The notes under the pieces: model-generated
Told to the model about the DNA's origin: nothing
The model's input: only the letters and a program-made list of their open reading frames with translations
Databases searched by the model: none
Assembly: GCF_003952485.1 (NCBI RefSeq)
Contig: NZ_CP034447.1
Location: 4,106,501-4,170,500 of the forward strand
Reading direction: 5' to 3'
DNA: 64,000 bases
Origin: Mesorhizobium sp. M1E.F.Ca.ET.045.02.1.1
GTDB lineage: Bacteria; Pseudomonadota; Alphaproteobacteria; Rhizobiales; Rhizobiaceae
Made by a program: the position numbers and the translations under genes
In this document: piece by piece, positions 1-19,707 of the stretch
Position numbering within the stretch: position 1 is the stretch's first letter
Layout: each line of letters begins with the position of its first letter

Positions 1-607
1 GCAATAAATCCAGCTCCAATAAGGTTTGGTTGGATCGACTGTCGTACAATCCAGGAATGGAATTTCTGGGCTTGGCGCGTTCGAGCTGGCTCCCCTGGAT
101 CACGAAGTGATACGGCTGGCAGTGCACCGTCAGTCTGCGGCCGAGGCGTCCTAGCGTCTTCAGTCCGATTCCAAATCTTCCCTTGCTGAATGGGTCATTC
201 CGCTTGGTGGATATGAAGGCTAGCGTCATGGCGATTACATGCTCAAGATGAACACGTTCACCATCGTGCACCACCAAAAGCTTCTGCCGACCCCCGGTGC
301 CTTGGACCGCGGCACGGACCTCGCTCGCCCCCAGGTCATCTGCATTCTGTACGACCTCAATGAGACCGTGAAAGGATTCCACATTTAGCTGTTCGGCACT
401 GATTTGCGCGCCGTCGAGGACTTGCCTCAGGACTCCGGGAGTGCCGTGTTGCAGGTGCTCAAGTTCCTCCAGTGCGGCATCTGCGAAATCGCGGGTCAAT
501 GGGTCCTCTACCGGACCTGCATTAAGCCCCAGGCTCCAGAGCCTACGGGCTGCGCCCCGGCCCATGTCGGAATGCGTAGCTACGGTCCTGATTTCACCTG
601 CGAGCAC
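1..607 (-). CDS. GHKL/HSP90-like ATPase-domain protein (3' end outside window)
   Basis: This is an open minus-strand frame from a GTG at 607 that runs off the window edge, so about 202 residues are visible. A good ribosome site (GGGAGGAG) sits a few bases before the GTG. The translation carries the Bergerat ATP-binding signature in order: an N-box (EVVQNADDLGA), a G1-like segment (VVHDGERVHLEHV) and a G2 box (KGRFGIGLKTLG). The family is the HSP90-type/sacsin-like HATPase group, often found in large bacterial proteins of defence islands. Only the N-terminal ATPase is visible, so the effector domain and true length are unknown. It lies downstream of the methyltransferase/helicase operon on the same strand, separated by an IS630 relic. 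Membership in that system is inference. Confidence 0.75.
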   Translation of the reverse strand, partial: MLAGEIRTVATHSDMGRGAARRLWSLGLNAGPVEDPLTRDFADAALEELEHLQHGTPGVLRQVLDGAQISAEQLNVESFHGLIEVVQNADDLGASEVRAAVQGTGGRQKLLVVHDGERVHLEHVIAMTLAFISTKRNDPFSKGRFGIGLKTLGRLGRRLTVHCQPYHFVIQGSQLERAKPRNSIPGLYDSRSNQTLLELDLL

Positions 608-630
608 GTTCTGCTCCTCCCAGCACCTGT

Positions 631-741
631 TTACCGTGGTTTGTCCGCTGCGTTCCAGTTTTCTCCGAGAATTTTGGAATCGTGAAGCTCTCGATAAGCG
701 ACACGGTCGGCGAGAACTTTAGCTTCGGTGGGCGTCGCCAT
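631..741 (-). CDS. possible short upstream ORF (36 aa)
   Basis: A short ATG-initiated frame (MATPTEAKVLADRV...) ends 24 bases before the GTG of the ATPase gene and is in a different frame from it. It could be a leader peptide or the frameshifted N-terminus of the downstream protein. Nothing in it is recognised. The remaining sequence between this ORF and the IS630 relic shows no gene. Confidence 0.2.
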   Translation of the reverse strand: MATPTEAKVLADRVAYRELHDSKILGENWNAADKPR

Positions 742-840
742 TTGACTGGGGAGATCTGCCGCCGGTCATCGATGAAAGCGAACGCTCTTGAGCTGATTCC
801 GTTTGAGGCGGTGCGCAAACTTTCTCTGCCCTAAAGCGTG

Positions 841-1130
841 TCGCGATTAATCGGCCTCATATCCGGCAGCTTTGAAGAAGTTTCTGCATTCGGTTGGGTC
901 GAACAAGTTGGCAGATATCGCCGAGAGCCTGGCAGACTGCGTCGAAGGTTCTGGCCGCCTTCTTTCGCAGCCGCGCCTTGAGTTTTGAGTAGGCCATCTC
1001 GATCGAGTTGAGATCTGGCGAGTATGGGGGCAGGAACAGGAACCAGGCGCCGCTTTGGCGAACCAACTGTGCGGCGCGCTCGTTCTTGTTGAGGCCGACA
1101 TTGTCGAGAATGACGAAATCGCCGGGCGAT
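841..1130 (-). pseudogene. IS630-family transposase relic
   Basis: One minus-strand frame reads GDFVILDNVGLNKNE, then FLPPYSPDLNSIEMAYSKLK. The latter is the last catalytic block of IS630 DDE transposases, with the third acidic residue in 'IEM'. The frame is closed upstream by a stop just before the conserved block. Downstream it drifts, and the expected tail (NLFDPTEC...FKAAGYEAD) continues in another frame, so at least one frameshift is present. The N-terminal two thirds are missing. It sits between the nuclease gene and the GHKL ATPase gene and marks past insertion. The rest of the 1130-1393 stretch shows no gene. Confidence 0.7.
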
Positions 1131-1392
1131 CACGACCCCATCCGCCAACTTGTTCCACCTCCCCCGCCACGCTCTCCCATCCGCCGACCATCGTGGCCTG
1201 CGAAATATAGCCATGGCCACATGGCGTAAGATCGCTCGTCTCGATGATGCCTGAAATTCGATTGGACATCGGACGGGGCATCCGCCTGCTCAAAAGATCG
1301 ATAACTTTACCGTGCCGTCAAAAACTAGGCGCGCCATCCCGACGCGAGCTGCGGCGCGGGGGCTTGGGCGAGGCATCCCCGTGCGATTGACA

Positions 1393-2034
1393 TCAGACCT
1401 TTTCTTCATCGTCGCTGACCGGAGCTATGATTTCCGACAGCCGCTTTCCGTCATGCATCCAGTAGTCCCACCCTCGGACCGACGGCCAGTTGTAGCCCAT
1501 CTTCCGAACTGCCAGTAGCGCCGCGCGCGACAGGTAAACCTCCTGACCTTCGTAGGAGACCTTGCGGTTCGAGACGATGGTGCAGGTGACATTCGGATCC
1601 TTGGAGAAGGTCAGCAAGGTCCCGGGCTTCAAGCCGATCATATCGAAGGTGAGATTGTCCGCGCGCTTGCGAGTGGCGACGATGGCCTCCTTCTCTTCAG
1701 GAGTGAAGCCCTGTTCGGCATCGCTCGGCGTCACATCGGCGGTCGCCACCAGCTCGATGATGGCCTTCGCAAGGTCGGGATCGACCTTGAAGAACTCGCG
1801 CCGCAATCTTGCTCGCTTCTCCCCGAAGACAAAATGCAGCGTTCGCTCCAGTTTCCTGCAATCAGGAACCCTGGCCGAGTAGTGGCATTCGAAAGGCAAG
1901 GGAACGGCGGTCACATCGAGCTGCCGAAGGCGCGTCGCGACGTCGTTTGCCTGCGTCATTCCAATCTTCACGAAACCCGGCATGGCCTCGTTGGTGAAAA
2001 TATAAACAATGCCGGGGGCAGCGGGTTCGGTCAT
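1393..2034 (-). CDS. GIY-YIG/T5orf172-like nuclease-domain protein
   Basis: The 213-residue protein begins with a GIY-YIG-type fold. 'GIVYIFTNEAMPGFVKIGMT' is the paired GIY/YIG strand region of the T5orf172 subgroup (VYI...VKIG), followed by 'RLRQLD' and a helix with 'CRKLERTLHFVF'. The C-terminal half (about 125-213) has a small domain with 'GTLLTF...CTIVSNRKVSYEGQEVYLSRAALL', which resembles the DNA-recognition/DUF4357-type tail found on restriction-associated nucleases. The start at 2034 gives an ATGA overlap with the helicase stop, so it is probably translationally coupled to it; an ATG two codons upstream is also possible. Cleavage activity is inferred from the family. It is the last gene of the defence-like operon before the IS630 relic. 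Confidence 0.7.
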   Translation of the reverse strand: MTEPAAPGIVYIFTNEAMPGFVKIGMTQANDVATRLRQLDVTAVPLPFECHYSARVPDCRKLERTLHFVFGEKRARLRREFFKVDPDLAKAIIELVATADVTPSDAEQGFTPEEKEAIVATRKRADNLTFDMIGLKPGTLLTFSKDPNVTCTIVSNRKVSYEGQEVYLSRAALLAVRKMGYNWPSVRGWDYWMHDGKRLSEIIAPVSDDEEKV

Positions 2035-4766
2035 GACCATCCTGTCCGCATGAAAGCCTCAAGATCGCGCGACGACAAGATTTTCTCAGTCGATTCCCAA
2101 TCGAGTCCCTTGTCGTCAGCGATGTCCCTCCAGTAGCGCTTCTCGACTGGCGACTTCATGAGGTCGACGCGCGACGGGAACATACGGACGGCCTCGCGAT
2201 CCATCAGCACGGCATCGACCCAGGCGTCCTCGAACGAATCCGGCAATTGTCCCAGAACCTTGAAGATGTCCTCGAACCGCTCAGACAAGGCTCCGTAGAC
2301 TTCATCCTCATAGGTACCCGCATAGCGAAGATTGGCGATATGGACTTGCTGCCGCCGCTGTCCGATGCGTTGGATGCGACCCTTGCGCTGTTCGAGGCGC
2401 GCCGGATTCCACGGTAGATCCACGTTGACCTGGGATCCGAGCCGCTGAAGGTTCAAACCCTCGCAGGCCGCGTCCGTGGCGGCGACCAGACGAATGGTGC
2501 CGGTCTTCACTCTGTCCTTGATGTCATCGCGATCGGCACGTCGGCGTTCTTTGCCGAGAAACACGAACGATCGATCGCCACCCGCGTAGAGAGCGACCTT
2601 CTCTCCTGGGAATTGCTCACAGAGCCGTTCGGCGACGAACGCCGCGGTGTCGTAATACTGACTGAAAGCGATCATGCCGTGGTCATCGAGCCATCGACGG
2701 TTCTGTAGGTAGTGGACGATGACCGCAACCTTCGGATCCATTCGGTCGCGCTCGAAGACGGCGACCAGGCTGGTTTCAACCTCTCTTAGCGCATCGATTT
2801 CGGTGGGCGTCAGTGGCAGCCGCGACCTCTCGCCAATCAGATCGTCCTCCTCGTCCATCACTGTGGCGCCAGCAAGCATTGACCGTGTAGTGGCGAGACC
2901 TGCGGCGACTGACGATCCGATGCGGCGCAAGAGAATCGTTTTCATAAAGCCCGCTGCCGGACGCGCCTTCGCGTAGAGGGAGCAGAACCGGATTGCCGCG
3001 TCGTAGGCTTGACGAAACGCGAGGCCCATTTCGAGGCCGCCGCCGTCGAACAACTGTTCGGATAATTCGTCCTCAAGGCGGGGGTGGACCACGACCTCGA
3101 TTGGGGCGAGAAGCTTGGCCTCCTCGAGCATGCCGCGCGAGCGCCGAATCACGCGACGGATGATGGGATTTGTTTGATTCGCCAATCGCTCGAACTGGTG
3201 GCGAAGCTCGGCCCTGACGCCGCGGGACAGGTCGTCGTATCGCGGTCCGTCTACCTTGCTATCGGGAAGTTTCGCCGCCGTCCGAACCTGGCGGTAAATC
3301 GGATCTTCTGCTGAGGGCGGCAAAGGATTGCGGAGCAGAGCCCATTGATCGGTTGGGTTCATGGGCCATGGTATCTCGCCGGTCAGATAGCCCATGCAAG
3401 CGTCGGAAGCCCAGCCGCGGCTGCCTTCGCTCCCGAGCACATGGTTCGCTCCCTTCGCGAGCATCGCGACAAGGTCGTGGAGTTCCTCGGCCCGCAACTG
3501 AATCGGCGTTGCGGTGCCGATTAGGACGCTCTGAGCGTTGACGGCGATCTTCTCCATAAAGGCAAGCAGCCGCTTCTCGCCGACGCGGGTGCCGTCCTTG
3601 CCGCTGCGGTCCGCCCGAGCCTTATGGGCTTCGTCGAGGATGACGACGGCAAACTTCTTGTTGATGAGGTGCCTGATCTCACTGTCCTCATCGCCGCTGA
3701 CAATCAACCCCGTAGAGACAATCCCTACCCTCATGGGACAACGCGCGACCGCGCCTGAATCGCCCTTAAAAGAGAGCGGCAACTCTTTGCCGTCGAGCCA
3801 CTGTTTTGTCGTGCTCGACCAGATCGCCGATGGGATACCAAGGTTGTCCCGAAGCTCCGTCTGCCATTGCCGCATGAGGGTCGCGGGCGCCAGGATCAGG
3901 ACGCCGCCGTTGGAGAGGAGGGAAAGGACGAGTGCGGCGGAGGCCATCGAGAGCGTCTTGCCGAGTCCCACGTCATCGGCAATTAGGAATCGGGCCTTGC
4001 GATAGAGCTTCCAGTCATCGACGCAGGTCTGGACGAATCGCTTCTGCCATGGACGGAGGATTTGGCCGGACTTGTAGATTGGGCGATCAATCAGGACCGA
4101 AGCGGGGTTCTCAATACCAAGCTGATCGCGGGCCTCTTCAATCGAGCGATATTCGATCCGACGAGAGACCGCACCGATGTGCTCGACGACCGCATTCGGC
4201 AGGTCGATGCCGAGCGACCAGAAATGTTCGAATTCCTCGCGCACCCAGGCAGTCGCCTCCGGATCATCGTCCTCCCACATGATCTCGTAAGAATGGAGCA
4301 GGCCGGTCGCGCTCTCGTTCATCGAGCCAACGAAAGCGCTCGACCCGCCATTGCGATACTCAATGATTCCCGCCTTGCCGTGCAGAAATACAGTAGAGCC
4401 ATCGCGAGGCACGACCCTGACCTTCATCCGTCCGGACACAAGCAGGTCGTGCAAAATGCGGTAGCGATCCTTCTCGAAGAGCGCGTCGAGGCTGGTCTGG
4501 TCCGCCATCCAGTTCGCCACGAGCATGCGAGAAATGGCGTTGGTCCCCTCGGAGGCTGCCTTTGCAATAGCCACGTCATTCGGGTCGAGTTCCGCGTTGC
4601 AGACGACCCTAATCTCGTCGACATTTCGAATCTCCTCCGAGACCAACTCCAGGAGCGACGATCGGAAGTAGCCAGCGACGCGCAAATACCGTTCTGCGCG
4701 CGACAGTCGTTCCCCTAGCATGTCGCGTAGCGAGGTGCGGCGAGACGAATGACGCGTGATGGCCAT
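2031..4766 (-). CDS. PLD-domain/SNF2-type helicase fusion
   Basis: A 911-residue protein. Residues about 1-190 form a phospholipase D-like domain with an HxK box at H129/K131 and a following GSMNES segment, as in PLD nucleases attached to helicases. A SNF2-like superfamily 2 motor follows: Walker A at about 263-271 (ADDVGLGKT), DEAH at 378-381, and a C-terminal helicase half ending in the arginine-finger motif VI (EQRKGRIQRIGQRR). The gene lies 17 bp downstream of the methyltransferase and overlaps the nuclease gene by 4 bases, so they form one operon. A role in recognising or remodelling unmodified DNA is inferred from restriction-like systems. DISARM keeps PLD (DrmC) and SNF2 (DrmD) on separate proteins; here they are joined. 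Confidence 0.85.
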   Translation of the reverse strand: MAITRHSSRRTSLRDMLGERLSRAERYLRVAGYFRSSLLELVSEEIRNVDEIRVVCNAELDPNDVAIAKAASEGTNAISRMLVANWMADQTSLDALFEKDRYRILHDLLVSGRMKVRVVPRDGSTVFLHGKAGIIEYRNGGSSAFVGSMNESATGLLHSYEIMWEDDDPEATAWVREEFEHFWSLGIDLPNAVVEHIGAVSRRIEYRSIEEARDQLGIENPASVLIDRPIYKSGQILRPWQKRFVQTCVDDWKLYRKARFLIADDVGLGKTLSMASAALVLSLLSNGGVLILAPATLMRQWQTELRDNLGIPSAIWSSTTKQWLDGKELPLSFKGDSGAVARCPMRVGIVSTGLIVSGDEDSEIRHLINKKFAVVILDEAHKARADRSGKDGTRVGEKRLLAFMEKIAVNAQSVLIGTATPIQLRAEELHDLVAMLAKGANHVLGSEGSRGWASDACMGYLTGEIPWPMNPTDQWALLRNPLPPSAEDPIYRQVRTAAKLPDSKVDGPRYDDLSRGVRAELRHQFERLANQTNPIIRRVIRRSRGMLEEAKLLAPIEVVVHPRLEDELSEQLFDGGGLEMGLAFRQAYDAAIRFCSLYAKARPAAGFMKTILLRRIGSSVAAGLATTRSMLAGATVMDEEDDLIGERSRLPLTPTEIDALREVETSLVAVFERDRMDPKVAVIVHYLQNRRWLDDHGMIAFSQYYDTAAFVAERLCEQFPGEKVALYAGGDRSFVFLGKERRRADRDDIKDRVKTGTIRLVAATDAACEGLNLQRLGSQVNVDLPWNPARLEQRKGRIQRIGQRRQQVHIANLRYAGTYEDEVYGALSERFEDIFKVLGQLPDSFEDAWVDAVLMDREAVRMFPSRVDLMKSPVEKRYWRDIADDKGLDWESTEKILSSRDLEAFMRTGWS

Positions 4767-4783
4767 GCGATATGGACTACCTC

Positions 4784-7705
4784 TTAGAGGCGATCGACTT
4801 CGAGCTTCTGAGCTAGGAGATCTGCTGCCGCGTATTCAGCAGGGCGGGTCTTCACTGTCTTGAGCGCCACATATCGGGCGAACTCGACGAGCTTCGTGCG
4901 CGTCGGCCAGTAATCGGGTCCGTACTCAGTCCGCAGATACGACATGCCGTACTTGGGATCTTCCTTTTGCATAGTCTTGTAGATCGCGAACAGGACGCGG
5001 CGCAGCGGCGATGTCGGGAAGCCTTTGCCTTCCAGGAGACGCGCCTTCATCTCATCGGCACCTGCGAGCGATGCGGCATTCGCCTTGGTCGACCCCATCA
5101 GCGCCTTATGGTCGGCGACGGCGAAGGTCTTTGCGAAATCCTGAAAGTCGGCGAACCGCGTTGTTCCCTTGGATTCCATGTCGAGCATGCGCACGTAGAA
5201 ACGGGACGCCGGATCTAGCTCCCGCCACAGCCCGGTCTGGAAGCCCTCAGGCACGAGCTTGTTGTTGGCCACGGAAGCCGCATATTCAATCAACTCGCGG
5301 ATGACAGTCTTCTCGCCCTTCTTGAACTTGCGGTAGACGTCTGCACCCACCTCGACGCGGTCGATAGTCTCGTAGCCCGTAATGACGCGAAGCGCCGCCG
5401 CGTAGGCCGCAAGTTGTAGATCGCCATCAGTGTAGAGGCGCTCAGCGGTCCAATCCTCGTCCAGGTCATGGAGTACCTTTAATTGCCGGTCCACCTCGGA
5501 CTCGATCTCGCCCTCTATATCCATCCGTTTGGCATTCTTCGCCGCCAGTCTCTTGCGAAGGACGAGCAGGATCGTGCCCTGAACGTAGTTGCCCTCCTTG
5601 AGCGCACTCTCCGTTTCGGTGACGATATTCCACGCAGCTGTCACCCTGAGACCAGCCGACCACATGATTGCCGCCAGGTCAGCCCAGACGCCCGCATCCT
5701 GGTGGGTAAACATGACCACCTGAAGCCCGTTGTCCGGCATGTGGGTGGCAATGGCCTTGTAGGCATCGACCATGTCGGCGCGGAACTTTTCATCGGAGCC
5801 TTTGATGGCCTTTGATCGTTGGCTATCCCACGTCCACTGATCGAAGGGTGGCGGCGCGTTCTTGCGCAGCCAGGCGATGAAGAACTCAGTAATCTCGTGA
5901 TAGTTGACTGCGTCTGCGTAAGGCGGGTCGGTGACAAAAAGCTCACAAGAAACACCATGCATGTTGGCGTTTCGAGGAACAACCTCGCGTCGAGTGTCTG
6001 GAAGTGTCAGTGACGGTATGTTTGTGGAGTTATCAGCTGCATATTCGAAGCTCCGGACGCCATAATTCAGCAAAGTATTGAGAGCCTGGTTTATGAAGAC
6101 GCGATCAATGCAAGTGTCTCGGCCAGAATTAGCACTGCGGGAATGTATTCCGCAAAGCTTCGCATTAAAATTTAGATCGTTGGCTAATATAAGGGCGCCA
6201 AATGCTGAAATACCGCGTCGGCTGAGAGACAGCATGAGCAACTGCCTCGCTCCGAACAAGTGATGCCAATAGGTCCAGCCGCGGGTGCGGATTGGCTCGT
6301 CGGTCTTCTCACCCGGTTCGATTGGCATGTCGGGCACAAGGCCCTCTTCCTGCCAGCGGGCTAGATTTTCTCGGACGACTGCTTCCACCTGGCGTTCCCT
6401 GGCAAGGTCCTCGTCCGTCACTGAAGCGAAGAAGGTGTGCTGTCGGCGCTTACCAAGCGACGCCTTGGTGATCCACTGGATGCAATAAAGACGCTCTTGC
6501 AGAGCGTCTTCAGGTCGGGGCACGAAGTCGTGCTTCTCCCAACGACGCAGGCCGTTTTTGTTGATCCGACCCTCTCGACGATCGCCACGGATCACGGAAA
6601 TCGCGACGCCGTCCTTCTCAGGGTTCATCGGATGAACAAGGCGGCCACCTTGGACGGTGCCCTGTGCAGCGACTTTCATTGCCCCTTCGTCGACGCCGGT
6701 TTCTATGACGATTTCGTAACACCTACGGTCGTGATCAGGAACGAGCCGCGCGACTACGCTGCGGGTCTTCGAGATCACCCATGACGGTGCCATAGGAACC
6801 ATCCAGCCTGTCTTCGGGCAGCGTGTCTCTAGACAATAGAGATAGGCCTTGGCGCGATTGCCGTGGGCATCGTGCTCAACCCCGAGGCGCGTGATCTCGG
6901 CATCGACAGCCTGCGCAACGCGCTTCTGCTCGGCGTCGACCTCGGCACGCTTCTCTTTGCTGGCGCCGATGAAGTTGAAGGCTCCCCAGGTTAGCATGCA
7001 GGCGATCGGGTTGAGATCGGAGGCGTAGACGTCGCACCCCATGCGCGCTGCCTCGAACGGGATCGACCCGCCGCCGCAGAAGGTGTCAGCGACCTTGGGT
7101 CGATGGCCAAACCGCATGATGCCAAGTTGCTCGATCAGCTCTGGGAACGAACGCGCCGACGTTTTGAGATGCGCGTTCACTTCGTCCCAGATGCCGCCAA
7201 GAAGCTCGTCCTCGTTACATTCCTCGGGCCGGAAGCAAAATGCGAGGCGGTCGTCATAGGGAAGCGTCGCTAGCCATTCGGCAATCAACCGGTGTCGGTC
7301 TTCCTTGGTGAGCGTCTTCCTCCAGATCGGGCGATCGCCGGGCTCGACAAGCTTGAGATAACTTGACCAATCTGAATCGATGTCCCTTGGCGAAATTGAC
7401 TTGATGCGCCGGGCGATCGCTGCGTCGTCCATGCCCATTAGCATCAGGAAAATGCGGAGGTCCTTCATCGGATCGTTCGTCGCGGGCAATAGACATCCGA
7501 GCACTGTGGCTCGAACGAGGATGAGCGGCTTGCGCCCTTTCCAGTAAGAGCCAAGCGCCGTCAACGTCTGTCCTGCTCCGGCTTTCCGTTCTTTGTAAGC
7601 CTCAGCGGAAATGCGCCCGACCGGCAGCTCACGCTCAATGAAAGAGGGGGCATCGGCCAGGGACAACGGAGCTACTTTCGGAGGGATTAACGTCATCGTG
7701 TTCAT
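4784..7705 (-). CDS. DUF1156-type N6-adenine DNA methyltransferase
   Basis: A 973-residue methylase of the DUF1156/COG1743 type. The N-terminus (SFIERELPVGRISAEAYKERKAG) is the DUF1156 block. The AdoMet-binding motif I is at about 207-213 (DTFCGGG) and the catalytic motif IV is DPPY at 593-596. This order, with about 380 intervening residues and a Cys-containing insert near 291-296, is typical of this large family. Family members transfer a methyl group from AdoMet to adenine N6 in DNA. Here it would protect self DNA while the DUF499 ATPase and PLD-SNF2 helicase act on foreign DNA; that division of labour is inference. It is close to DrmMI of class 1 DISARM by domain type. Confidence 0.88.
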   Translation of the reverse strand: MNTMTLIPPKVAPLSLADAPSFIERELPVGRISAEAYKERKAGAGQTLTALGSYWKGRKPLILVRATVLGCLLPATNDPMKDLRIFLMLMGMDDAAIARRIKSISPRDIDSDWSSYLKLVEPGDRPIWRKTLTKEDRHRLIAEWLATLPYDDRLAFCFRPEECNEDELLGGIWDEVNAHLKTSARSFPELIEQLGIMRFGHRPKVADTFCGGGSIPFEAARMGCDVYASDLNPIACMLTWGAFNFIGASKEKRAEVDAEQKRVAQAVDAEITRLGVEHDAHGNRAKAYLYCLETRCPKTGWMVPMAPSWVISKTRSVVARLVPDHDRRCYEIVIETGVDEGAMKVAAQGTVQGGRLVHPMNPEKDGVAISVIRGDRREGRINKNGLRRWEKHDFVPRPEDALQERLYCIQWITKASLGKRRQHTFFASVTDEDLARERQVEAVVRENLARWQEEGLVPDMPIEPGEKTDEPIRTRGWTYWHHLFGARQLLMLSLSRRGISAFGALILANDLNFNAKLCGIHSRSANSGRDTCIDRVFINQALNTLLNYGVRSFEYAADNSTNIPSLTLPDTRREVVPRNANMHGVSCELFVTDPPYADAVNYHEITEFFIAWLRKNAPPPFDQWTWDSQRSKAIKGSDEKFRADMVDAYKAIATHMPDNGLQVVMFTHQDAGVWADLAAIMWSAGLRVTAAWNIVTETESALKEGNYVQGTILLVLRKRLAAKNAKRMDIEGEIESEVDRQLKVLHDLDEDWTAERLYTDGDLQLAAYAAALRVITGYETIDRVEVGADVYRKFKKGEKTVIRELIEYAASVANNKLVPEGFQTGLWRELDPASRFYVRMLDMESKGTTRFADFQDFAKTFAVADHKALMGSTKANAASLAGADEMKARLLEGKGFPTSPLRRVLFAIYKTMQKEDPKYGMSYLRTEYGPDYWPTRTKLVEFARYVALKTVKTRPAEYAAADLLAQKLEVDRL

Positions 7706-7717
7706 CTGGCCGCCGGG

Positions 7718-8371
7718 TCAAGCAAAGGCAGATGCGTCGCCGTGACTGGCGATGACCTTGAGAGCGGCGGACTCGAGTTTCGTGCGCTCCGAATTCCGCT
7801 CAGATTGGAAACCGTCATTCTTCCGGGGCGGCAATCGGCCGCGCCCCATCATTGAGCCGAGCGTGAACACATCTTGCTTCGTTCCGAAACACAGCGCCTT
7901 CGCGAGCGCACCGCGCCATCCCAGGGCGGTCTGGTGCGCATAGCCAGTCGAGGCGGCGGTCATGGTGTAGAGCCACCAACGCTCCTCGGGCTTGAGGCCA
8001 GTCCAATTCCGGATGGCAACCTCGCATTGTTCAATCGAAATATCATCACCTTCGATAGCCCAGACAAGCACCAGGAGTTCCTTGCCGAGAAGACGCTGAA
8101 CGGCGTTGTTGCCGAGCGACCAGGATCCAGCCTTCTTGCGTTCCGACTTCAAACGGCGGTTGAATTCTAGGCGGGCCTCGCCTGAGATAGCATCCCATTT
8201 TGCCTTCACAAGATTGGCTCGGTGAATGACTTCGGGGCCCCAGCTTTCCTCTGTCTCCTTCGGAGGACGACCGAAAACCTCGAAGACGTACACATCATCC
8301 TTTGGGGCGCGCGGCACCTGCACGAGATAGCAGTGCTCGAGGTAATGGTCGGCGCAATCGAAGCCAGACAT
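7718..8371 (-). CDS. DUF3780-family protein
   Basis: A protein of 217 residues recognised as DUF3780 from the block 'NWTGLKPEERWWLYTMTAA' and an N-terminal segment with HYLEHCYLVQVPR. The ATG at 8371 is chosen because AAGGGA lies a suitable distance upstream. An in-frame GTG at 8422 would overlap the DUF499 gene by 25 bases. The function of the family is unknown. It is encoded between DUF499 ATPases and DUF1156 methylases, which suggests a structural or specificity subunit of that complex (inference). Confidence 0.8.
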   Translation of the reverse strand: MSGFDCADHYLEHCYLVQVPRAPKDDVYVFEVFGRPPKETEESWGPEVIHRANLVKAKWDAISGEARLEFNRRLKSERKKAGSWSLGNNAVQRLLGKELLVLVWAIEGDDISIEQCEVAIRNWTGLKPEERWWLYTMTAASTGYAHQTALGWRGALAKALCFGTKQDVFTLGSMMGRGRLPPRKNDGFQSERNSERTKLESAALKVIASHGDASAFA

Positions 8372-8397
8372 AACGCGCATTCCCTTGTTGGTTTCGA

Positions 8398-11300
8398 TCA
8401 GTCGACGTTGTCCTGCGTCCACTTGAGGCTCTCGAAATCGAGCTTCATGGTGTCCGCGAAGACCCGGAAATCCTTTCCGGTCGTGAACTTCGTGCTGTTG
8501 AATGCTCCGTTCGCGCGAGTGGCCTCAAATGCGGCTTCACGCGCAATGGTGCTCATGATGGTCTCGACGGCGGCCGGAAGGAGGGCGACCTGATCGCCAA
8601 AGACTGTGTCGACGAACAGGTCGCCCTCCTCAGTTCCGATCTCGAGCTTCCCACCTCTGATGGTCGCGCCTGCCGCAAGCTTGAGCGCTTCGAGCGCGTC
8701 GGTCAGCGCAGTGATCGACACGAACTCCTGACGTTCGAGCAGCAGAACCGGCCGGTCGTCCCGCAGAACCCGCTTCTCGGCCTTCTTGCCGGCGATAAGA
8801 TTGATCTCGACCGTGTCGGAGATGCGTTCGTCGACGGTCGCAATGAGGCGGGCAATAACGGAACCTTCGGGCGCGACCATGGGGGCTTTGGCAGGCGGTG
8901 CCGTCTTCGGATCGCTGCCGTCGAACGTGACGCGCACCTGCGCCGAACGCGGTAGCACTGCCCAAGTAATCTCGAAGCCCGCGGAGGTGGACTGCGCTGA
9001 CGAAGAAAGTCGTACTGGCGCGAGCCATTCGAGGATCGGGCCCGACACCGCTTCATTTTTCGAATCGACCGCCATGAACCACGCCTTGGAGGCGCTAGTC
9101 TCCCACAGACGGCCCTGGACTCGCGCAGACGTGTTCGGATCGGGAGGACCGTGCTCGGAAGCATAGACGACGTCGGCGTCCTCCGGCGTCACCGTGAGTC
9201 GGTAGACGCCCTTATCGATCATCGGTTCGATTGCGCCGTCAAATCTGACCTGCACCGACGTTTGTCGGGTGAATTTCTTCTCGATGAGATTGCTACGCTC
9301 GCGCCAGTGTTTGGTTCGCACGCTCTCGTTGATGACGTAGTCGAGGCCACCCGAGGCGAGCCAGTACCATCCAGGCTTAGCTGCCGACTTCCGCTTCAGT
9401 TCGGCGCGCGGGACCGCGTCGGCATCGAAAAGCTCCTCCTCGGCTTCAGCTCTGATGGCTCGGATATCCTTCTCAATCTTGGCCGCGGGATAGAACTTGC
9501 CCCGCTCCTCCAGCGTCTTGAGGATCTGCTCCTCGCCCTTGTAGTCGTTGTTGTCGAACTCCATGCGGAACTGGCTGTAATCCCGCAGCGCCGCGCCCGT
9601 CGGGAACACGAGCGAGGAGAATGCTTCCCGCACGGCAGAAGTAAACTGGTTGGCAGCCCGCTCCCTGATTTTTTCGACGTCGCGCATCTGCGGGGATTCT
9701 TTGCCATGACGCGACAGGACAGACGCCCCAACGACGGCGATCGCCCGCATCTGCCGAGCGACAGAGCGGAGTGTGCCGAGCGCGTTGCGGTCGGCCGTCA
9801 GGATCAGCACACGATTGCGCCGATCAAGGTCTTCCCACCACTTAACGAGATCGGCGGGAAGCTCTGACGCCGAACGCTCCAGGATAATTAGTGTAACGTC
9901 CTCGTCGCCGATCTTGATCTGATCGAGCGACGGCAGAATCGCGAGCTGGCGGTAAAGAGACTTCGTTTTTGGTTCGAATACGACTTCCAGCTTTCGGCGC
10001 AGCTCCTGGTCGACGACCTCCTCCGCCAAGCTCGACGCAGTGTTATTGATCTCTGATGTGACGTTCGCTGTTTGCCCGAAAAAGATGCGCTGCGATGGAT
10101 CGAAGAAGAGATATTCCGCTTCCTGGGTGAGCTTGTCGATCGCGGACGCGATCGCCGGAGTCTTCGTGAGTGGGTCGATCAGAAACTCAACGATCTCGTT
10201 GCGGCGCAGGCCGAGGATTGGTTGCTCGGCAGTCGACAGGGATGCCATCAGTATAAGCTTGGCGACTGAGGTGGCGGTGGTTGAACCCACGCCGGCATCG
10301 ATCTCCTCGGCCTTTGCCATGCCGCGATCGGCGATATCCTTGGCAATGGCATTGGTGAAGTGCGTGTTGATTTTGCGCACTTCCTCGACCACGCCCTGAG
10401 TGTTGAAATCGAGGTGCTGCAGGCCAATTAGAAAGTCTTGGTCGGTTGATTTCCATGCGCTTCGGACGGCAAGGCGGAGGATGCGGATAAGTGCGCGCGT
10501 CTGCTGGTATCCCGGGTTCTCCTTAAATCGGGCAACCACGTCTCGGATCGAGGGGTGGAAGGGATAGGTTTCTCGGATGCGGGCAATGTAGCTCTCAGGA
10601 ACGACCGGAATATCTTCGACGCGCTTGGCCTTGTTCAACTCGTCAACGTAGGCCTGAGCGATCTCGTCGATCACATCGTCGTCGGGAATATGGTCGAACA
10701 GCTTCCTGCGGATGATCTGAAAAATCTCACCCGAGTTCTGCTGAACGGGCGTGATTGCCTGGGCGTATTTTCCATACTGCTTGTTCAACGTGTTAATTAG
10801 AGTCTTGAGTCTATTCGATCCCTCCGCGAACACGTCGTCGAGCAGATTCGTCACCACCACGCAGGCCGCAGGTAATTGACTGAGAGCGTTGAAGAGCCTC
10901 TCGAGCGCGCCGATCGTAATGTCGGCAAGTGTCGAGTTTCCGACCGTCTGCCCTTCGGCCATCTGAAGATAGCTTGGCAATTCGTCGAGCAGAATCAGGA
11001 CGGGTTCGTCACCGAGAGCCGCGATCCAGTCGTTGACACCAGGGGCCTTGGCGCCGTCTTTCCAGAAGCGCGACATGGTATCCGGACGACCTAGCCGTTC
11101 GGCGATCTCGCCCCACAGAAAGTTCGCCGGGTTCTGGTGACCGTTGAAGACAACGACCTTGGCCGCGCCAAACGTTGCTGTAGGCGCGATAGACGGGATG
11201 ATCCGGTGACGCAGGCCGTCATCCTGGGCTAGCAGGGCGAACGCGATTAGGGAGTGGGTCTTGCCGCCGCCCATCGACTGCGAGAGGTAGAACGCCCCAG

Positions 11301-11502
11301 CGTCCGACCTCCCCGAGAGCCGGTCAAAGCCGCCTCGGATCAGCGTATTCAGCCCGTCGGTGAAATGGTTCCTACGGAAGAATGCATCGGGATCGATCTT
11401 GCCCTTGTGCAGGTCCTCCACGTTGGCGATCTGGTCAACGAGCCCATCATCCTGCACGAGCGGCGAAATTTCGCATAGTTGTTGAACAGTTCTGATCGAC
11501 AT
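8398..11502 (-). CDS. DUF499-family AAA+-like ATPase
   Basis: A very large protein (about 1034 residues) with an N-terminal P-loop SMGGGKTHS (about 76-84 from this start) and a Walker B-like block VLILLDELPSY some 90 residues later. This matches DUF499/COG1483 predicted ATPases, which accompany DUF1156 methylases. The C-terminal third (after about 700) contains a segment 'RVTFDGSDPKTAPP', like the chitobiase-type repeats seen in the family. The ATG at 11502 follows a GGGGGGATCG ribosome site; a TTG four codons upstream is less likely. First large gene of the operon. Probably the motor or sensor of the system; biochemical role not established here. Confidence 0.85.
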   Translation of the reverse strand: MSIRTVQQLCEISPLVQDDGLVDQIANVEDLHKGKIDPDAFFRRNHFTDGLNTLIRGGFDRLSGRSDAGAFYLSQSMGGGKTHSLIAFALLAQDDGLRHRIIPSIAPTATFGAAKVVVFNGHQNPANFLWGEIAERLGRPDTMSRFWKDGAKAPGVNDWIAALGDEPVLILLDELPSYLQMAEGQTVGNSTLADITIGALERLFNALSQLPAACVVVTNLLDDVFAEGSNRLKTLINTLNKQYGKYAQAITPVQQNSGEIFQIIRRKLFDHIPDDDVIDEIAQAYVDELNKAKRVEDIPVVPESYIARIRETYPFHPSIRDVVARFKENPGYQQTRALIRILRLAVRSAWKSTDQDFLIGLQHLDFNTQGVVEEVRKINTHFTNAIAKDIADRGMAKAEEIDAGVGSTTATSVAKLILMASLSTAEQPILGLRRNEIVEFLIDPLTKTPAIASAIDKLTQEAEYLFFDPSQRIFFGQTANVTSEINNTASSLAEEVVDQELRRKLEVVFEPKTKSLYRQLAILPSLDQIKIGDEDVTLIILERSASELPADLVKWWEDLDRRNRVLILTADRNALGTLRSVARQMRAIAVVGASVLSRHGKESPQMRDVEKIRERAANQFTSAVREAFSSLVFPTGAALRDYSQFRMEFDNNDYKGEEQILKTLEERGKFYPAAKIEKDIRAIRAEAEEELFDADAVPRAELKRKSAAKPGWYWLASGGLDYVINESVRTKHWRERSNLIEKKFTRQTSVQVRFDGAIEPMIDKGVYRLTVTPEDADVVYASEHGPPDPNTSARVQGRLWETSASKAWFMAVDSKNEAVSGPILEWLAPVRLSSSAQSTSAGFEITWAVLPRSAQVRVTFDGSDPKTAPPAKAPMVAPEGSVIARLIATVDERISDTVEINLIAGKKAEKRVLRDDRPVLLLERQEFVSITALTDALEALKLAAGATIRGGKLEIGTEEGDLFVDTVFGDQVALLPAAVETIMSTIAREAAFEATRANGAFNSTKFTTGKDFRVFADTMKLDFESLKWTQDNVD

Positions 11503-11525
11503 CGATCCCCCCAAGCACGAAACTA

Positions 11526-11756
11526 CTAGCGGAACGCCGGGTTTGCCCCATTGCCGGACGCCCGGATTTCACGTTCTCGGAGCCATTCCCGGATGGCTTC
11601 TTCAGCGATCTCGTAGCTATGACGGTCGTCATCAACGGCCGCTTTCTTAAGCGCCTTGATAACATCCGGATCGAGATAGACGAGCAACGATCGCCGACCG
11701 TCGATCCGTTGGCTTGGCGCTCGACTCGAGGATCGAACGATTGGTTTTTGCGCCAT
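11526..11756 (-). CDS. ribbon-helix-helix DNA-binding protein
   Basis: A 76-residue protein. The segment RRSLLVYLDPDVIKALKKAA followed by HSYEIAEEAIREWL is a typical MetJ/Arc ribbon-helix-helix: a short strand, helix A with the conserved turn, and helix B. It precedes the DUF499 gene by 23 bp and could autoregulate the operon. The start is uncertain, since an ATG 13 codons upstream is also open. It could instead be an orphan antitoxin, but no toxin gene is adjacent. Confidence 0.65.
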   Translation of the reverse strand: MAQKPIVRSSSRAPSQRIDGRRSLLVYLDPDVIKALKKAAVDDDRHSYEIAEEAIREWLREREIRASGNGANPAFR

Positions 11757-11872
11757 TCGGATAGCCAGATAGCTAGAACATGACATCTTCAGCATCTAGC
11801 AGTTGAGTTTCGTTTTCGACAAGCGGAAGTTTTCGGTGAGGGCGGATTTATTAAATGAAAGGTTCCGCCAGT

Positions 11873-12076
11873 CTAGAGGCTGTCCCGGTTCCCCTTTTGC
11901 GCTTCTCCCGGCGTCACGCCGGCGGCCCGCTCCAAATCCACCATTACCAGGGCTAGCAGATCGCGCTTGGTGCCGTGCAGAATAGACACGACCTGTTGCG
12001 CGAGTTCCATGGTGTCGCGCGCTTCTTCCGGCGTGCGGCCCCAGAGATGCGGGGCAGCGCTCAACAGCATTTCCAT
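11873..12076 (-). CDS. small hypothetical protein
   Basis: About 67 residues starting MEMLLSAAPHLWGRTPEEARDTME, mostly helical by composition. ATG 12076 has AGGA nine bases upstream; an alternative start at 12100 adds eight residues. It overlaps the 3' end of the upstream HTH gene and is probably co-transcribed. No family recognised. Confidence 0.45.
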   Translation of the reverse strand: MEMLLSAAPHLWGRTPEEARDTMELAQQVVSILHGTKRDLLALVMVDLERAAGVTPGEAQKGNRDSL

Positions 12077-12318
12077 CGAATAAATCCTAGGATTTCGCAC
12101 AGGTGGATCATTCGGGTTACATGCATCTTTGAAAATGCACGTTCGTAGCGGCCATAAACCTGCATCGAAAGGCCAAGCAAGGGCGCGAGCTCGGCGCGCG
12201 TCAGATCCTTGCGCCTTGCGGATGAAGGTGGCAATTCTTTGATCGATCTCCCCGAGCGTTTTGATGCCTCCGAATCCCGGGTGGATTTATCGATCTCGGG
12301 ATCAATCGTCTCAACCAA
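12061..12318 (-). CDS. XRE-type helix-turn-helix regulator (small)
   Basis: The C-terminal half reads LTRAELAPLLGLSMQVYGRYER, then MIHLCEILGF, the layout of a Cro/XRE helix-turn-helix. The protein is at most 85 residues and its start is unclear (the furthest candidate is a TTG). It overlaps the next small gene and points toward the defence operon, so a regulatory role is plausible. AT-richer than the flanking metabolic operons, in line with acquired DNA. Confidence 0.55.
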   Translation of the reverse strand: MVETIDPEIDKSTRDSEASKRSGRSIKELPPSSARRKDLTRAELAPLLGLSMQVYGRYERAFSKMHVTRMIHLCEILGFIRWKCC

Positions 12319-12449
12319 ATCGATTTTGTTCTTATAAGGCGTCCATATCCTTAGGCACGTCCCCTCCCTCCCACTGAGAGAAAATCAGCGAGCCCTGGCA
12401 GCAACTATTCGCCAAGTACCCGGTTCGCCCTCGAACACAGCTTCGACAA

Positions 12450-12760
12450 GTTTTCCCCATCGACCCACCCCAGATGCGCCAGGAGTTCGCACGCGATAGT
12501 GCCGATGATGGTCGAACTTGCCGCCAGGATAGCACAATCGACCGATCGCGGCTTTCCGATCATCGCCGCGCTGATGGAGGCGTTGCTGGAACGGAAATTC
12601 ATCCTACCGGCGCCGGGCACGTTGGAGCGAGCGGCTGCGGCCGGCCGCGCCAGAGCGCAGCGCCTGGCGGCCGATGCATTGATCGCACCGTTGACACAGG
12701 ACCATCTCGCTGGACTCGACGTGTTGGTCGTCAATGATCCAGGCGACGGGCCGCAGCTAA
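12450..12760 (+). pseudogene. Tn3-family transposase relic (N-terminal DUF4158 region)
   Basis: A plus-strand frame contains AARIAQSTDRGFPIIAALME, then KFILPAPGTLERAAAAGRAR, then DHLAGLDVLVVNDP. This resembles the N-terminal domain of Tn3-family TnpA. Only about 100 of roughly 1000 residues remain, with no open frame on either side. It forms the right border of the defence-like island and is evidence of transposition there. Confidence 0.5.
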
Positions 12761-12764
12761 CGCC

Positions 12765-12905
12765 GGGCTTTCGCAGGCAGCAACTGCTTTGCCGCAACGA
12801 TCCCGCCATTGACATACGCCGGCCGGCGCGGTGGCTTGCCCACATCCGCGTGTTTCGCCAAGGCGTCATAAGAGCCGTTCGCCAGGGGCAGGAACCCGCC
12901 TTACG
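12765..12905 (-). pseudogene. possible second transposase 3' fragment
   Basis: On the minus strand a short frame reads SYDALAKHADVGKPPRRPAY, followed by VNGGIVAAKQLLPAKARR and a stop. It looks like the conserved C-terminus of a larger protein, perhaps a transposase, abutting the Tn3 relic in the opposite orientation. The family is not identified; recorded as a gene fragment only. The remaining bases up to 13,033 show no gene. Confidence 0.25.
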
Positions 12906-13033
12906 CAAGAGTAATCTGTTGATAGCTGGTCAAAGAGCAGGGCTCTGGTGCCGTTGCGGTGGTATTGATGCTTGCCGCCTATCTCCTTTCCAGATAGGCA
13001 TATTGAACGCTGGAGATCGCGCTCCAGCCGGAT

Positions 13034-13972
13034 ATGCTTACCGTGGAAATCAGGCAGCTAAGATACTTCGTAGGCGTGGTCGACGCGGGCAGTTTTACGA
13101 AGGCGGCTTCGCTCCTTCACGTGGCGCAGAGCGCGCTTAGCTTGCATGTGCGTCAGCTCGAAGAACGCTTTGGTACTCAGCTGCTTCTACGTGACCGGAC
13201 CGGTGTGACCGTGACGGCTTCCGGAGCGAAGCTGCTCGAGCGGGCGCGGACAATTTTAGAGGAAATTCATCTCACCGAAGCGGAACTGACCAACTCGGTA
13301 ATCTCCCCTGCGGGGGAGGTCACAATAGCCATTCCGTCCGGGGCCGCCCGCGTCCTGAGCGGACCGTTGCTGGAATCGGTAATGAACGAGCTGCCGCGGA
13401 TTTCGCTCAAGATGATCGAAGGCATGACCGGGCCGCTTGAGGAATGGATGGCTGCTGGCCGGTTCAACCTGGCGGTGCTCTATCGAACCGCCGAAGCCGT
13501 GGGTCACACGATGGTGCTGGCACGCGAAGAATTTTGCTTGGTGGTGCCGGCGGGTAAGCCGCCTTTCGAAGATTCGATACCTCTTGCCGATCTGCACGCA
13601 TTTCCGCTGGCAGTTCCTATGCGTAGCAACAACACCAGGCGATCGGTCGCAGATGTCGTTGCACAGCACGGGTGCGTGCTGGACGTAAGATTTGAGGTCG
13701 ATTCGCTTTCCACAATCGTCAATATGGTGATCGAGGGGAAGACTTATTCCATACTTACCCCGTCGGCCGTTCACAAAGAAGCCTCTGAGGGACTGGTCCG
13801 GACGGTTAGAATTGTCGATCCGGTGATTACCCGGTCGGTTGTGCTGGCCGTAAATCCGACAGATGAACGTTCTCCGGCCGTCTCCGCTGTCCGTAAGCTC
13901 ATCCCTAAGGTCGCCAGAACGTTGATTGAAAGCCGGTGCTGGTCAGCCACACTTCCGGACAACAACCCCTGA
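13034..13972 (+). CDS. LysR-type transcriptional regulator
   Basis: A 312-residue protein with an N-terminal winged HTH (EIRQLRYFVGVVDAGSFTKAA...AQSALSLHVRQLEE) and a C-terminal type 2 periplasmic-binding-like effector domain. The sequence resembles the Nac/CynR branch. It stands alone: relics on the left, and on the right 400 bp without a gene before the convergent nickel permease. Its target is therefore not obvious. It may once have controlled genes lost through the neighbouring transposition. The effector ligand cannot be told from sequence. Confidence 0.85.
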   Translation: MLTVEIRQLRYFVGVVDAGSFTKAASLLHVAQSALSLHVRQLEERFGTQLLLRDRTGVTVTASGAKLLERARTILEEIHLTEAELTNSVISPAGEVTIAIPSGAARVLSGPLLESVMNELPRISLKMIEGMTGPLEEWMAAGRFNLAVLYRTAEAVGHTMVLAREEFCLVVPAGKPPFEDSIPLADLHAFPLAVPMRSNNTRRSVADVVAQHGCVLDVRFEVDSLSTIVNMVIEGKTYSILTPSAVHKEASEGLVRTVRIVDPVITRSVVLAVNPTDERSPAVSAVRKLIPKVARTLIESRCWSATLPDNNP

Positions 13973-14375
13973 CCGACGGAGGGTCGCGTGTCACCTGCGG
14001 ATCGATGTAGAGGTTGATCGCGACATAAGGCTGCTCGGATGAAGCCTCGTTGATCTGACCTATGGCGGCGGCGAGTTCGGCCCGCCACGACCATGCAGTG
14101 CCCGGCTCCACCAAGCGCAGGCCGACGCCGCTTGGCGCTCGCTATGGATCAGGGGGCCAGCTGACGGTCGCGGTGTTCATGCCAAAGTCTATGCCGCAAA
14201 TCCCTGAACGCGAGTTAAATTGATAACGCCCAGCCGGCTTCGGGAACTCATCAGAAAAGAGCCTTGAACACCGTCTGCTTAGTAGGTGCCGTGCGAGCCT
14301 AAGCGGGGGCGCCGACGCGGATTCGGTTGCGCGGCGTTGGCCGGAGGGCGGTTGGGCATAATTTTTCTCGCCAGG
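13973..14375. other. intergenic stretch without a supported gene
   Basis: About 400 bases between the LysR gene and the 3' end of the nickel permease. Short minus-strand frames (one reading VEPGTAWSWRAELAAAIGQI) look like debris of an older gene but match nothing I recognise. No clear promoter, terminator or repeat was seen. Confidence 0.4.
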
Positions 14376-15428
14376 TCACGGAGCCGTCATCGCTTCCGCT
14401 CTGTCGTAGCCGTTGAGCTTGTAGACAAGATTCGAGACCAGCCAGCAGAGGACAAATATTCCGACAACGATGTAGCCGAAGATGGTTAGGTCGCCATTCA
14501 CGTTGCCAACGACATTCCACACCCCTCCGTGCAAGCTCAGCCTGTCGGCAATCAGCCCAAGCGTCTCGATACCGCCGATGAAGATGGCGACCACCACGGA
14601 TGCGGCCGTAATCGTCATGTTGTACCAGAGCTTGCGTGTCGGATTCACAAACGCCCAACCGTAAGCGCGGGTGGTCAGTACGCTGTCGATCGTGTCCAAG
14701 AGCGACATCCCGGCGGTGAACAGAGCCGGAAAGATCAATATCGTCCAGAACGACGTGCCGGCTGCTGCCTGCGCCGCCGAAATGCCGAGCAGGCCGATTT
14801 CGGTTGCGGTGTCGAACCCGAGTCCGAACAGAAAGCCGACCGGGTACATATGCCAGGAGCGTGTGACGACGCGAAACACTGGCCGGAAAATGCGGGCGAA
14901 GAAGCCGCGTCCGGCCGGCAGCGTCTCCAGATCCTCCTCGACCATGGGCTCGCCACGTTGAGCTTTCGAAAAGGCCCGCCAGATGCTTTTGAGAATGAAG
15001 AGGTTCGCGATGCCAATGGCGAGCAGGAACAGGGCCGAGATGCAGGTTCCAATCATGCCGCCAATTTCGTGAAACCTTTCCAACCGGCCTTGAAGGGCCG
15101 CGGCCGTCCCGGCGATCGCCAAGGATGCCAGCACGACGATCGTGGAATGGCCGAGCGAAAAGAACAGCCCAGCCGAGAAGGGAGCCTTCTTCTCCTGCAT
15201 CAGCTTGCGCACGACATTATCGATCGCAGCGATATGGTCGGCATCGAAAGCATGCCTCAGCCCAAACGTATAAGCGAGCAAGGCCGTGCCGAGCAGGGCG
15301 GGATGATGGGAAAAGGCAAACCAGGTCGATGCCCAGGCGGCTATGTTGGCCGCGATCAGAAAAACGCAAGTGAGCACCGTCTTGCAGCGCAGATGATCGG
15401 GCCGGTCGTCGAATAGATTGGCAATCAT
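14376..15428 (-). CDS. NiCoT-family nickel permease (HoxN/HupN/NixA type)
   Basis: A 350-residue integral membrane protein with eight or so hydrophobic segments and the NiCoT signature H-x4-DH in TM2 (RHAFDADHIAAIDNV). Further family blocks are LGHSTIVV and GFLFGLGFDTATEIGLL. It would import Ni2+ for insertion into HupL by HypA/HypB. It is the last gene of the hydrogenase operon, 77 bp after hypB, which supports nickel rather than cobalt as substrate. Length is typical for the family. Confidence 0.9.
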   Translation of the reverse strand: MIANLFDDRPDHLRCKTVLTCVFLIAANIAAWASTWFAFSHHPALLGTALLAYTFGLRHAFDADHIAAIDNVVRKLMQEKKAPFSAGLFFSLGHSTIVVLASLAIAGTAAALQGRLERFHEIGGMIGTCISALFLLAIGIANLFILKSIWRAFSKAQRGEPMVEEDLETLPAGRGFFARIFRPVFRVVTRSWHMYPVGFLFGLGFDTATEIGLLGISAAQAAAGTSFWTILIFPALFTAGMSLLDTIDSVLTTRAYGWAFVNPTRKLWYNMTITAASVVVAIFIGGIETLGLIADRLSLHGGVWNVVGNVNGDLTIFGYIVVGIFVLCWLVSNLVYKLNGYDRAEAMTAP

Positions 15429-15505
15429 GATCTATGCCCCACTCGCGTAGCGCGCAGCCTTGGCCAAAGACGACCAATCACCTGCGCAATCTTTTTGGCT
15501 TTTGC

Positions 15506-16453
15506 CTAGATTTTGTGTGCGGCGGACCTTTGCGGCGCAATCGCAGAGGACTGGCCAAGAGATCGCCGATGGTTGCGCAGCCAGCCGTACCACTGGTCGA
15601 CGCCCTCGCCGTTGCGCACCGACAAAGCTATCGCCTCGATTGCCGGATTGACTGCACGTGCATTGGCCAAAGCGACATCCATATCAAAATCGACATAGGG
15701 CAACAGATCGGTCTTGCTGATGATCATGAGGTTGGCCGCCTGGAACATGTTCGGATACTTGAGCGGTTTGTCCTGGCCCTCGGTTACCGAGAGAACGATG
15801 ACCTTTGCATCTTCGCCGAGGTCGAACAGCGCGGGACAGACGAGATTGCCGACATTTTCGATCAGCACCATCGCGCCGCTGGGCGGCCTCAGTTCCTGGA
15901 GAGCCTGCGCGACCATGTCAGCCTCGAGGTGGCATCCCGTGCCAGTGTTGACCTGAACCGCCGCTGCCCCGGCGGCGCGAATGCGTTCGCCGTCATTGGC
16001 GGTGGCCTGATCGCCTTCGATCACGAAGATCGGGATTTCGTCCTTGAGGTCCTGAATTGTCCGTTCCAAAAGCGTCGTCTTGCCGGCGCCGGGCGAGCTG
16101 ACGATGTTCAATGCCAGGATTTCCCGCCCCTCGAACCAGCCTCGGTTGCGCATGGCGAGCGTGTCGTTCTTGGCAAGCAAGCGGGCCTCCAGCTCGACGA
16201 CAGTCGTCCCGCGCCCATGGCCATGTTGATGCTCATGGCCATCATGATCGTGGTGATGATGTCCGTGCTCATGGTCGTGCACATGCCCATCGCCATGGTG
16301 GTGGGAATGCGAATGGCCATGATCATGCTCATGATCGTCGCGATGGTGGCCAGGGTGCTCGCTGGTGTGACCGCCCAACGGCCGGACCAGGCCCGTCTGT
16401 AAATTCAGCATCCTGGCGTTGGTGTTTGATCCGCATCCACAGGTCGCGCACAT
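15506..16453 (-). CDS. hypB: hydrogenase nickel-incorporation GTPase HypB
   Basis: A 315-residue SIMIBI GTPase that drives nickel delivery to HupL. The N-terminus has the CxxCGC nickel motif (MCATCGCG). A His-rich stretch of about 50 residues (roughly 29-80) follows and probably stores nickel. The P-loop is SSPGAGKTTLL, with later blocks EGDQAT, ENVGNLVCP and ISKTDLLP. Its start overlaps the hypA stop as TGATG. Storage by the His-rich region is known for rhizobial HypB proteins; here it is inferred from composition. Confidence 0.96.
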   Translation of the reverse strand: MCATCGCGSNTNARMLNLQTGLVRPLGGHTSEHPGHHRDDHEHDHGHSHSHHHGDGHVHDHEHGHHHHDHDGHEHQHGHGRGTTVVELEARLLAKNDTLAMRNRGWFEGREILALNIVSSPGAGKTTLLERTIQDLKDEIPIFVIEGDQATANDGERIRAAGAAAVQVNTGTGCHLEADMVAQALQELRPPSGAMVLIENVGNLVCPALFDLGEDAKVIVLSVTEGQDKPLKYPNMFQAANLMIISKTDLLPYVDFDMDVALANARAVNPAIEAIALSVRNGEGVDQWYGWLRNHRRSLGQSSAIAPQRSAAHKI

Positions 16454-16791: not shown

Positions 16792-16797
16792 GGTTCC

Positions 16798-19696: not shown

Positions 19697-19707
19697 AGCT
19701 GATCTCC

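Follow-up and report, generated by a model that had tools for sequence, protein, structure and literature searches.

DUF499-centred BREX-related (BR) defence systems have been named in PMC12839542, which defines a Type-2 form where DUF499 occurs with a DUF1156 N6-methylase, a standalone DUF3780 protein and a helicase whose N-terminal HKD nuclease replaces TUDOR. Type-2 BR is reported there from 1120 taxa, with DUF3780 in 98%; its DUF499 is described with a C-terminal RRM fold and, in 53% of taxa, FnIII-like repeats. Section 30 of PMC12839542 notes that DUF3780 carries a fused RAMA domain in some cases, and the mechanism offered for these systems is a prediction. The set also has equivalog names in NCBIfam (NF042961-NF042964, anti-phage-associated DUF499, DUF3780, DUF1156 and PLD-like proteins) and counterparts in PADLOC (DUF499, DUF3780, DUF1156_MTase and PLD_Helicase). 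The same genes were reportedly listed by Gao et al. in 2020 as a restriction-like (RL) system. Here we examine an operon of this kind at the left end of a 64,000-nucleotide stretch of Mesorhizobium sp. M1E.F.Ca.ET.045.02.1.1 (NZ_CP034447.1, positions 4,106,501 to 4,170,500; hereafter the window). Judged by their sequences, its four core genes are a Type-2 BR system as already described, so that "unstudied", as an earlier note on this DNA called its mechanism, is not supported; a fifth gene, for a GIY-YIG nuclease with a RAMA-fold domain, stands outside that core.

The operon comprises five complete reading frames of 213 to 1038 residues, all on the minus strand between 1393 and 11514. Family scans with Pfam, PADLOC and NCBIfam, which covered ten open reading frames (ORFs) of window 1-12908, recovered all five products that the earlier note had recognised: DUF499, DUF3780, DUF1156 methylase, PLD-SNF2 helicase and GIY-YIG nuclease (best E-values per gene, 4.6e-13 to 8.7e-51 in Pfam and 2.1e-47 to 0 in PADLOC). 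The DUF499 AAA+ ATPase (8398-11502 from an ATG or 8398-11514 from a TTG, of which the ATG at 11502, preceded by GGGGGGA, looks likelier) matches PF04465 at 1.3e-23 and NF042962 with 788 bits, under the cut-off of 1200; GGGKT at 82 and LILLDE at 173 are seen by eye, and a search of this protein with the strict pattern G-x4-GK[ST] gave no match. The DUF3780 protein (7718-8422 from a GTG, with ATG 8380 as a possible alternative start) matches PF12635 at 8.7e-51 and NF042961 with 170.6 bits, under the cut-off of 200. The predicted DUF1156 N6-adenine methyltransferase (4784-7705) carries DUF1156 at its N-terminus (PF06634, 1.4e-19 at residues 27-82) together with CGGGS and DPPY motifs, and reaches E 0 and 1204 bits in PADLOC and 1305.6 bits with NF042963, above the cut-off of 1000. 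The PLD (HKD-type) nuclease-SNF2 helicase fusion (2031-4766) has PLDc_2 at its N-terminus (residues 19-183) and SNF2-rel_dom starting at 258 in Pfam, matches PADLOC PLD_Helicase across residues 1-910 at 6.4e-262, and scores 1039.5 bits with NF042964, under the cut-off of 1100. Across 11 aligned helicase sequences, the window's included, three motifs (HGKAG, GSxN and GLGKT) are invariant, as are D, E and H in the DEAH box; the D of the PLD motif HxKx4D is replaced by E in the window, at a position that varies across the family. The likeness to Type-2 BR extends to all four core proteins, to their order (DUF499-DUF3780-DUF1156-helicase), to DUF3780 as a standalone protein and to the PLD/HKD domain at the N-terminus of the SNF2 helicase. 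The spacing given in the earlier note also holds, with 17 nt between methylase and helicase genes (4767-4783) and the helicase stop overlapping the ATG at 2034 of the GIY-YIG gene as ATGA (2031-2034).

Two other described systems share parts with this core. Hma, or Type-1 BR, has a related ATPase, methylase and helicase, and window proteins match HmaC (5.6e-51), HmaB (1.9e-21) and HmaA (1.8e-36), but these scores are far weaker than those of the Type-2 models, and the window has DUF3780 and, as its nuclease, an N-terminal PLD domain. The PADLOC scores of the DUF499 protein (PDLC02192 at 1.5e-201 versus 5.6e-51 for HmaC) favour Type-2 over Hma; the trees described below contained DUF3780-linked loci only. 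The BrxC, BrxXI and BrxHII proteins of Type-3 BREX are described as homologous to the BR core in PMC12839542, whereas the window has DUF499 in place of BrxC, and its ten scanned ORFs include no PglZ.

How conserved is this arrangement? An alignment search with DUF3780 found 564 relatives in genome contigs, and the best 80 of these 564, with 9 viral contigs, 2 further genomes and 3 plasmids, make up 94 comparison loci that are partly non-independent (L018 and L040 share sequence). By tblastn, DUF499 is present in 92/94, DUF1156 in 90/94 and the helicase in 70/94; all four core genes occur together in 70 of the 94, and 69 of these 70 keep the window's gene order. DUF3780 is found in 3/397 genomes of the window's order, its own included, which makes the operon rare there and its acquisition probably horizontal. 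Trees of DUF499 (84 sequences), DUF1156 (67) and the helicase (65) each place the window in the same ten-member clade with support 1.0. Its other members are L004, L005, L013 and L021-L026, the last six from Roseococcus, Roseomonas, Bradyrhizobium, Fertoeibacter, an Acetobacteraceae metagenome-assembled genome (MAG) and a Bauldia MAG, all of them alphaproteobacteria. L013 likewise scores below the NCBIfam cut-offs (helicase, 1066.1 bits; partial DUF3780, 148.3 bits), and low scores common to the window and this relative in the two proteins tested point to a divergent clade to which the window's core would belong. With three of its four core proteins under the NCBIfam naming cut-offs, automatic annotation may miss them.

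Some features of the wider family may be recorded here. Type-2 BR genes lie on nine IMG/VR viral contigs (L004-L012), eight of them with all four core genes, so that the system may travel on prophages or other mobile elements. The DUF3780 sequence closest to the window's (77-78%) is a piece in Methylobacterium nonmethylotrophicum (L027, 10001-10393), likely a remnant, as no other core gene is found nearby at E 1e-3. The interval between DUF3780 and DUF1156 exceeds 800 bp in 15/70 loci. Extra DNA lies at 10543-12498 of L066, and gaps of similar size are present in L057, L067, L072, L076, L079-L081, L087, L090 and L096; by eye, its product resembles Schlafen AlbA in L066 and a macro-domain protein in L057.

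The fifth gene (1393-2034 from ATG 2034, or 1393-2040 from ATG 2040) encodes a T5orf172/GIY-YIG nuclease that matches the PADLOC candidate PDC-S57 over its full length (PDLC05041, 8.8e-73, model positions 3-208 of 212). It additionally holds a C-terminal domain with the RAMA fold, which the earlier note had missed. It is here that the window departs from Type-2 BR: a GIY-YIG-RAMA gene was found in 0/94 other DUF3780 loci by hidden Markov model (HMM) search and tblastn at 1e-3, the best E-value with HMM filters off was 0.32, and in 59/94 the sequence ran on for 1.5 kb or more past the helicase. By this distribution the gene is not a core component and lies outside the conserved set; "GIY-YIG" has 0 occurrences in the main text of PMC12839542. 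The earlier view of a self-contained modification-restriction set therefore stands in part, for a conserved restriction-modification (R-M)-like operon without DUF1998, and fails for the nuclease. The nearest described enzymes may be the N6-methyladenine-dependent wH-GIY-YIG type IV nucleases (PMC11037411), which likewise join a GIY-YIG nuclease to an adenine-methylation reader (for the window, a proposed one); the window's proposed reader differs in being a C-terminal RAMA domain, and its gene in lying inside an R-M-like operon. GIY-YIG-RAMA fusions are mentioned as uncharacterised in section 29 of that source.

GIY-YIG matches are sparse: across the phylum they occur in 14/398 genomes, counting the window's own, with 9 of the 14 spanning most of the protein. 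They occur in 14/369 of the class of G599 and in 3/199 of the window's family, where the other two match N-terminally only. We examined 32 further GIY-YIG-RAMA copies, among them one from plasmid record H24 and three from phages; 7/43 plasmid records with a GIY match were taken, those covering most of the query, and 3/89 from phages, and nine sequences matching in the N-terminal part only were left out of the tally (L125 from G272, G453, G708, G689, G238, G808, G749, G1223 and G1117). An R-M gene is adjacent in 9/32 copies. On the same strand we find hsdM-hsdS-hsdR followed by a 235-residue gene (YgjP-type peptidase-like by eye) and then the GIY-YIG gene (L159, thus one gene away), hsdM-hsdS-hsdR-GIY (L161), hsdM-hsdS-GIY-hsdR (L167), GIY followed by a 1648-residue fused enzyme (L160; REase_MTase_IIG in PADLOC, and presumably type ISP-like, a label of our own), and a type III mod-res-GIY array (L164, recognised by eye with PADLOC in agreement, type III lying outside the R-M panel used below); in these five, 6-17 nt separate the GIY-YIG gene from its neighbour. 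It lies between hsdR-like and hsdM-like matches in L192, next to a divergent BsuBI/PstI-type R-M gene in L017, next to a divergent hsdM with hsdR beyond in L120, and beside a same-strand C-terminal piece of hsdR in L121. The window adds a further case of adjacency, in which a BR core takes the place of the classical R-M system. No recognised R-M neighbour is present in the other 23/32, neighbours throughout having been scanned against family libraries in part; some of these loci adjoin housekeeping genes, three lie in prophage-like lysogeny regions, and in L195 an annotated methyltransferase gene adjoins. Those three (L126, L194 and L195) come from lactic acid bacteria, where the gene has repressor-like genes and integrases close by in prophages or a prophage-like plasmid. 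Superinfection-exclusion genes are usually found at such positions.

A tblastn panel of R-M proteins matched 11/32 GIY-YIG-RAMA loci versus 0/19 control stretches, one of which is only 2.6 kb long. Counting only matches from another locus's protein, the figure is 8/32 (one-sided p 0.017 against the 0/19 controls); before four late loci were added it was 7/28 (one-sided Fisher p 0.019), or 10/28 for all matches (p 0.0025), and the 18 genome loci alone give 4/18 versus 0/19 (p 0.046).

How might core and fifth gene act together? The core most likely works as PMC12839542 proposes, with a methyl self mark, ATPase scanning and helicase-nuclease attack on DNA that lacks the mark. What we observe here is gene identity, domain make-up, kept motifs, core order and the fact that the fifth gene recurs in other R-M operons; from there we infer the catalytic and defence steps, the methylated base and the RAMA target as follows. 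The DUF1156 methylase would mark host DNA with N6-methyladenine, and the DUF499 ATPase would scan DNA and, together with DUF3780, build a complex. Should incoming DNA be unmodified, the SNF2 motor would translocate and the fused PLD nuclease would cut. Added to this Type-2 BR core, the GIY-YIG-RAMA protein is probably an accessory, type IV-like nuclease directed against DNA that escapes the main system. We favour its role as a backup that would check adenine methylation, for example on phage DNA with foreign adenine methylation, much as BREX is paired with type IV enzymes of the GmrSD family (PMC12839542, section 35). Only tentatively do we extend this to a portable backup module, recruited independently into the lysogeny regions of prophages and into unrelated adenine-methylating operons of type I, type III, fused R-M and Type-2 BR systems, where it would sense adenine methylation and attack methylated DNA evading the primary check. 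The weak step is RAMA recognition: a RAMA domain that bound any N6-methyladenine would direct the nuclease to the host's own genome through the host methylase. The R-M tally has weak points too. The 32 loci are mutually non-independent, the R-M panel was partly built from the same loci, and four copies are split, truncated or interrupted (L015, L119, L128 and L172). The controls come from 13 genomes, the window's own included, with no plasmid or viral contigs among them, and the matches in L168 and L169 lie at least 6 kb away and may be other helicases.

Alternatively, GIY-YIG-RAMA might stand on its own, as a solo defence gene or a selfish one that landed behind the helicase by chance, with an incidental ATGA overlap and no cooperation. 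We regard this as a serious contender, though not the probable one. No other BR locus of the 94 carries the gene, PADLOC lists PDC-S57 as a separate candidate of its own, and relatives adjoin a uracil-DNA-glycosylase-superfamily gene (L117), an ABC transporter (L123) and, by eye, threonine dehydratase-like genes (L163 and L165), besides the prophage-like regions. Yet random insertion predicts neither the excess of R-M matches over controls nor the tight same-strand spacing in five R-M loci, to which the window adds its overlap with the helicase. That overlap would also suit an integral subunit, in which RAMA reads the DUF1156 mark and the nuclease replaces or supplements PLD within one complex; RAMA would be a known partner, given its fusion to DUF3780 in some Type-2 BR systems. 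We think this unlikely, because the PLD-domain H and K and the GSxN residues are kept, no relative seen among the 94 loci needs a GIY-YIG-RAMA protein, and the same protein type accompanies unrelated type I and type III systems.

For the locus as a whole, the earlier note had proposed a DISARM-related system. The adenine methylase, SNF2 helicase and PLD protein of DISARM class 1 are part types that the window shares (its methylase by prediction), and the window's helicase does match DrmD (1.6e-38) and DrmA (3.2e-26). However, that similarity is confined to the helicase region, against a full-length match to PLD_Helicase, and the best models are those of the DUF499, DUF3780, DUF1156 and PLD_Helicase set. 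PLD and SNF2 form one protein, this fusion being the sole PLD protein among the ten ORFs, so that a separate DrmC is lacking there; DrmB (DUF1998) is likewise absent among these ten, to which the search was limited, as the earlier note had itself remarked. A DISARM-like system is accordingly very improbable. A decaying, non-functional remnant among mobile elements is also improbable, if less extremely so: a transposase remnant and a frame-broken regulator lie nearby and scores fall under NCBIfam cut-offs, but all five frames are complete, most motif residues are kept, and the low scores recur in the L013 helicase and DUF3780, as in a divergent clade.

The surroundings look like a defence region in mobile DNA. 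The operon is flanked on one side by an IS630-family transposase remnant (831-1129, between the TmtA and GIY-YIG-RAMA genes), 90.6% identical to a Mesorhizobium plasmid copy, and on the other by a helix-turn-helix (HTH) regulator whose frame is broken by eye (11894-12499), in DNA that shares 84-86% identity with plasmids of Aminobacter and Mesorhizobium. Within the latter, ORF 12061-12318 is weakly HTH-like (7.3e-4, below cut-off) and by eye part of the broken regulator, a further amendment to the earlier note. An 89-residue ORF (11526-11795, minus strand) with weak ribbon-helix-helix similarity (RH3_dom 0.012, Antitox_RHH 0.032, both below cut-off) is a possible, unproven regulator; tblastn found a relative in 0/94 other DUF3780 loci. 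A second defence candidate lies beside the operon: the cut gene at 2-607 (minus strand) continues at 10602-15107 (minus strand) of L002 and is complete in the genome, encoding a 1501-residue TmtA-family protein (PADLOC, E 0) whose N-terminal ATP-binding domain is sacsin-like. To the right, minus-strand genes at 14376-23683 for NicO, CobW-like, HypE-like (AIRS), HypD, SIS-domain, HypF and NHL-repeat proteins lie in one run, which resembles a hydrogenase maturation set but is unusual in composition.

The fifth gene matters more than the core. Its product joins a nuclease to a proposed reader of adenine methylation, and genes of this type occur with several unrelated R-M operons. This association suggests that R-M systems can come equipped with a counter to methylated phage DNA; it also offers a bacterial setting in which the disputed role of RAMA domains as readers can be tested.

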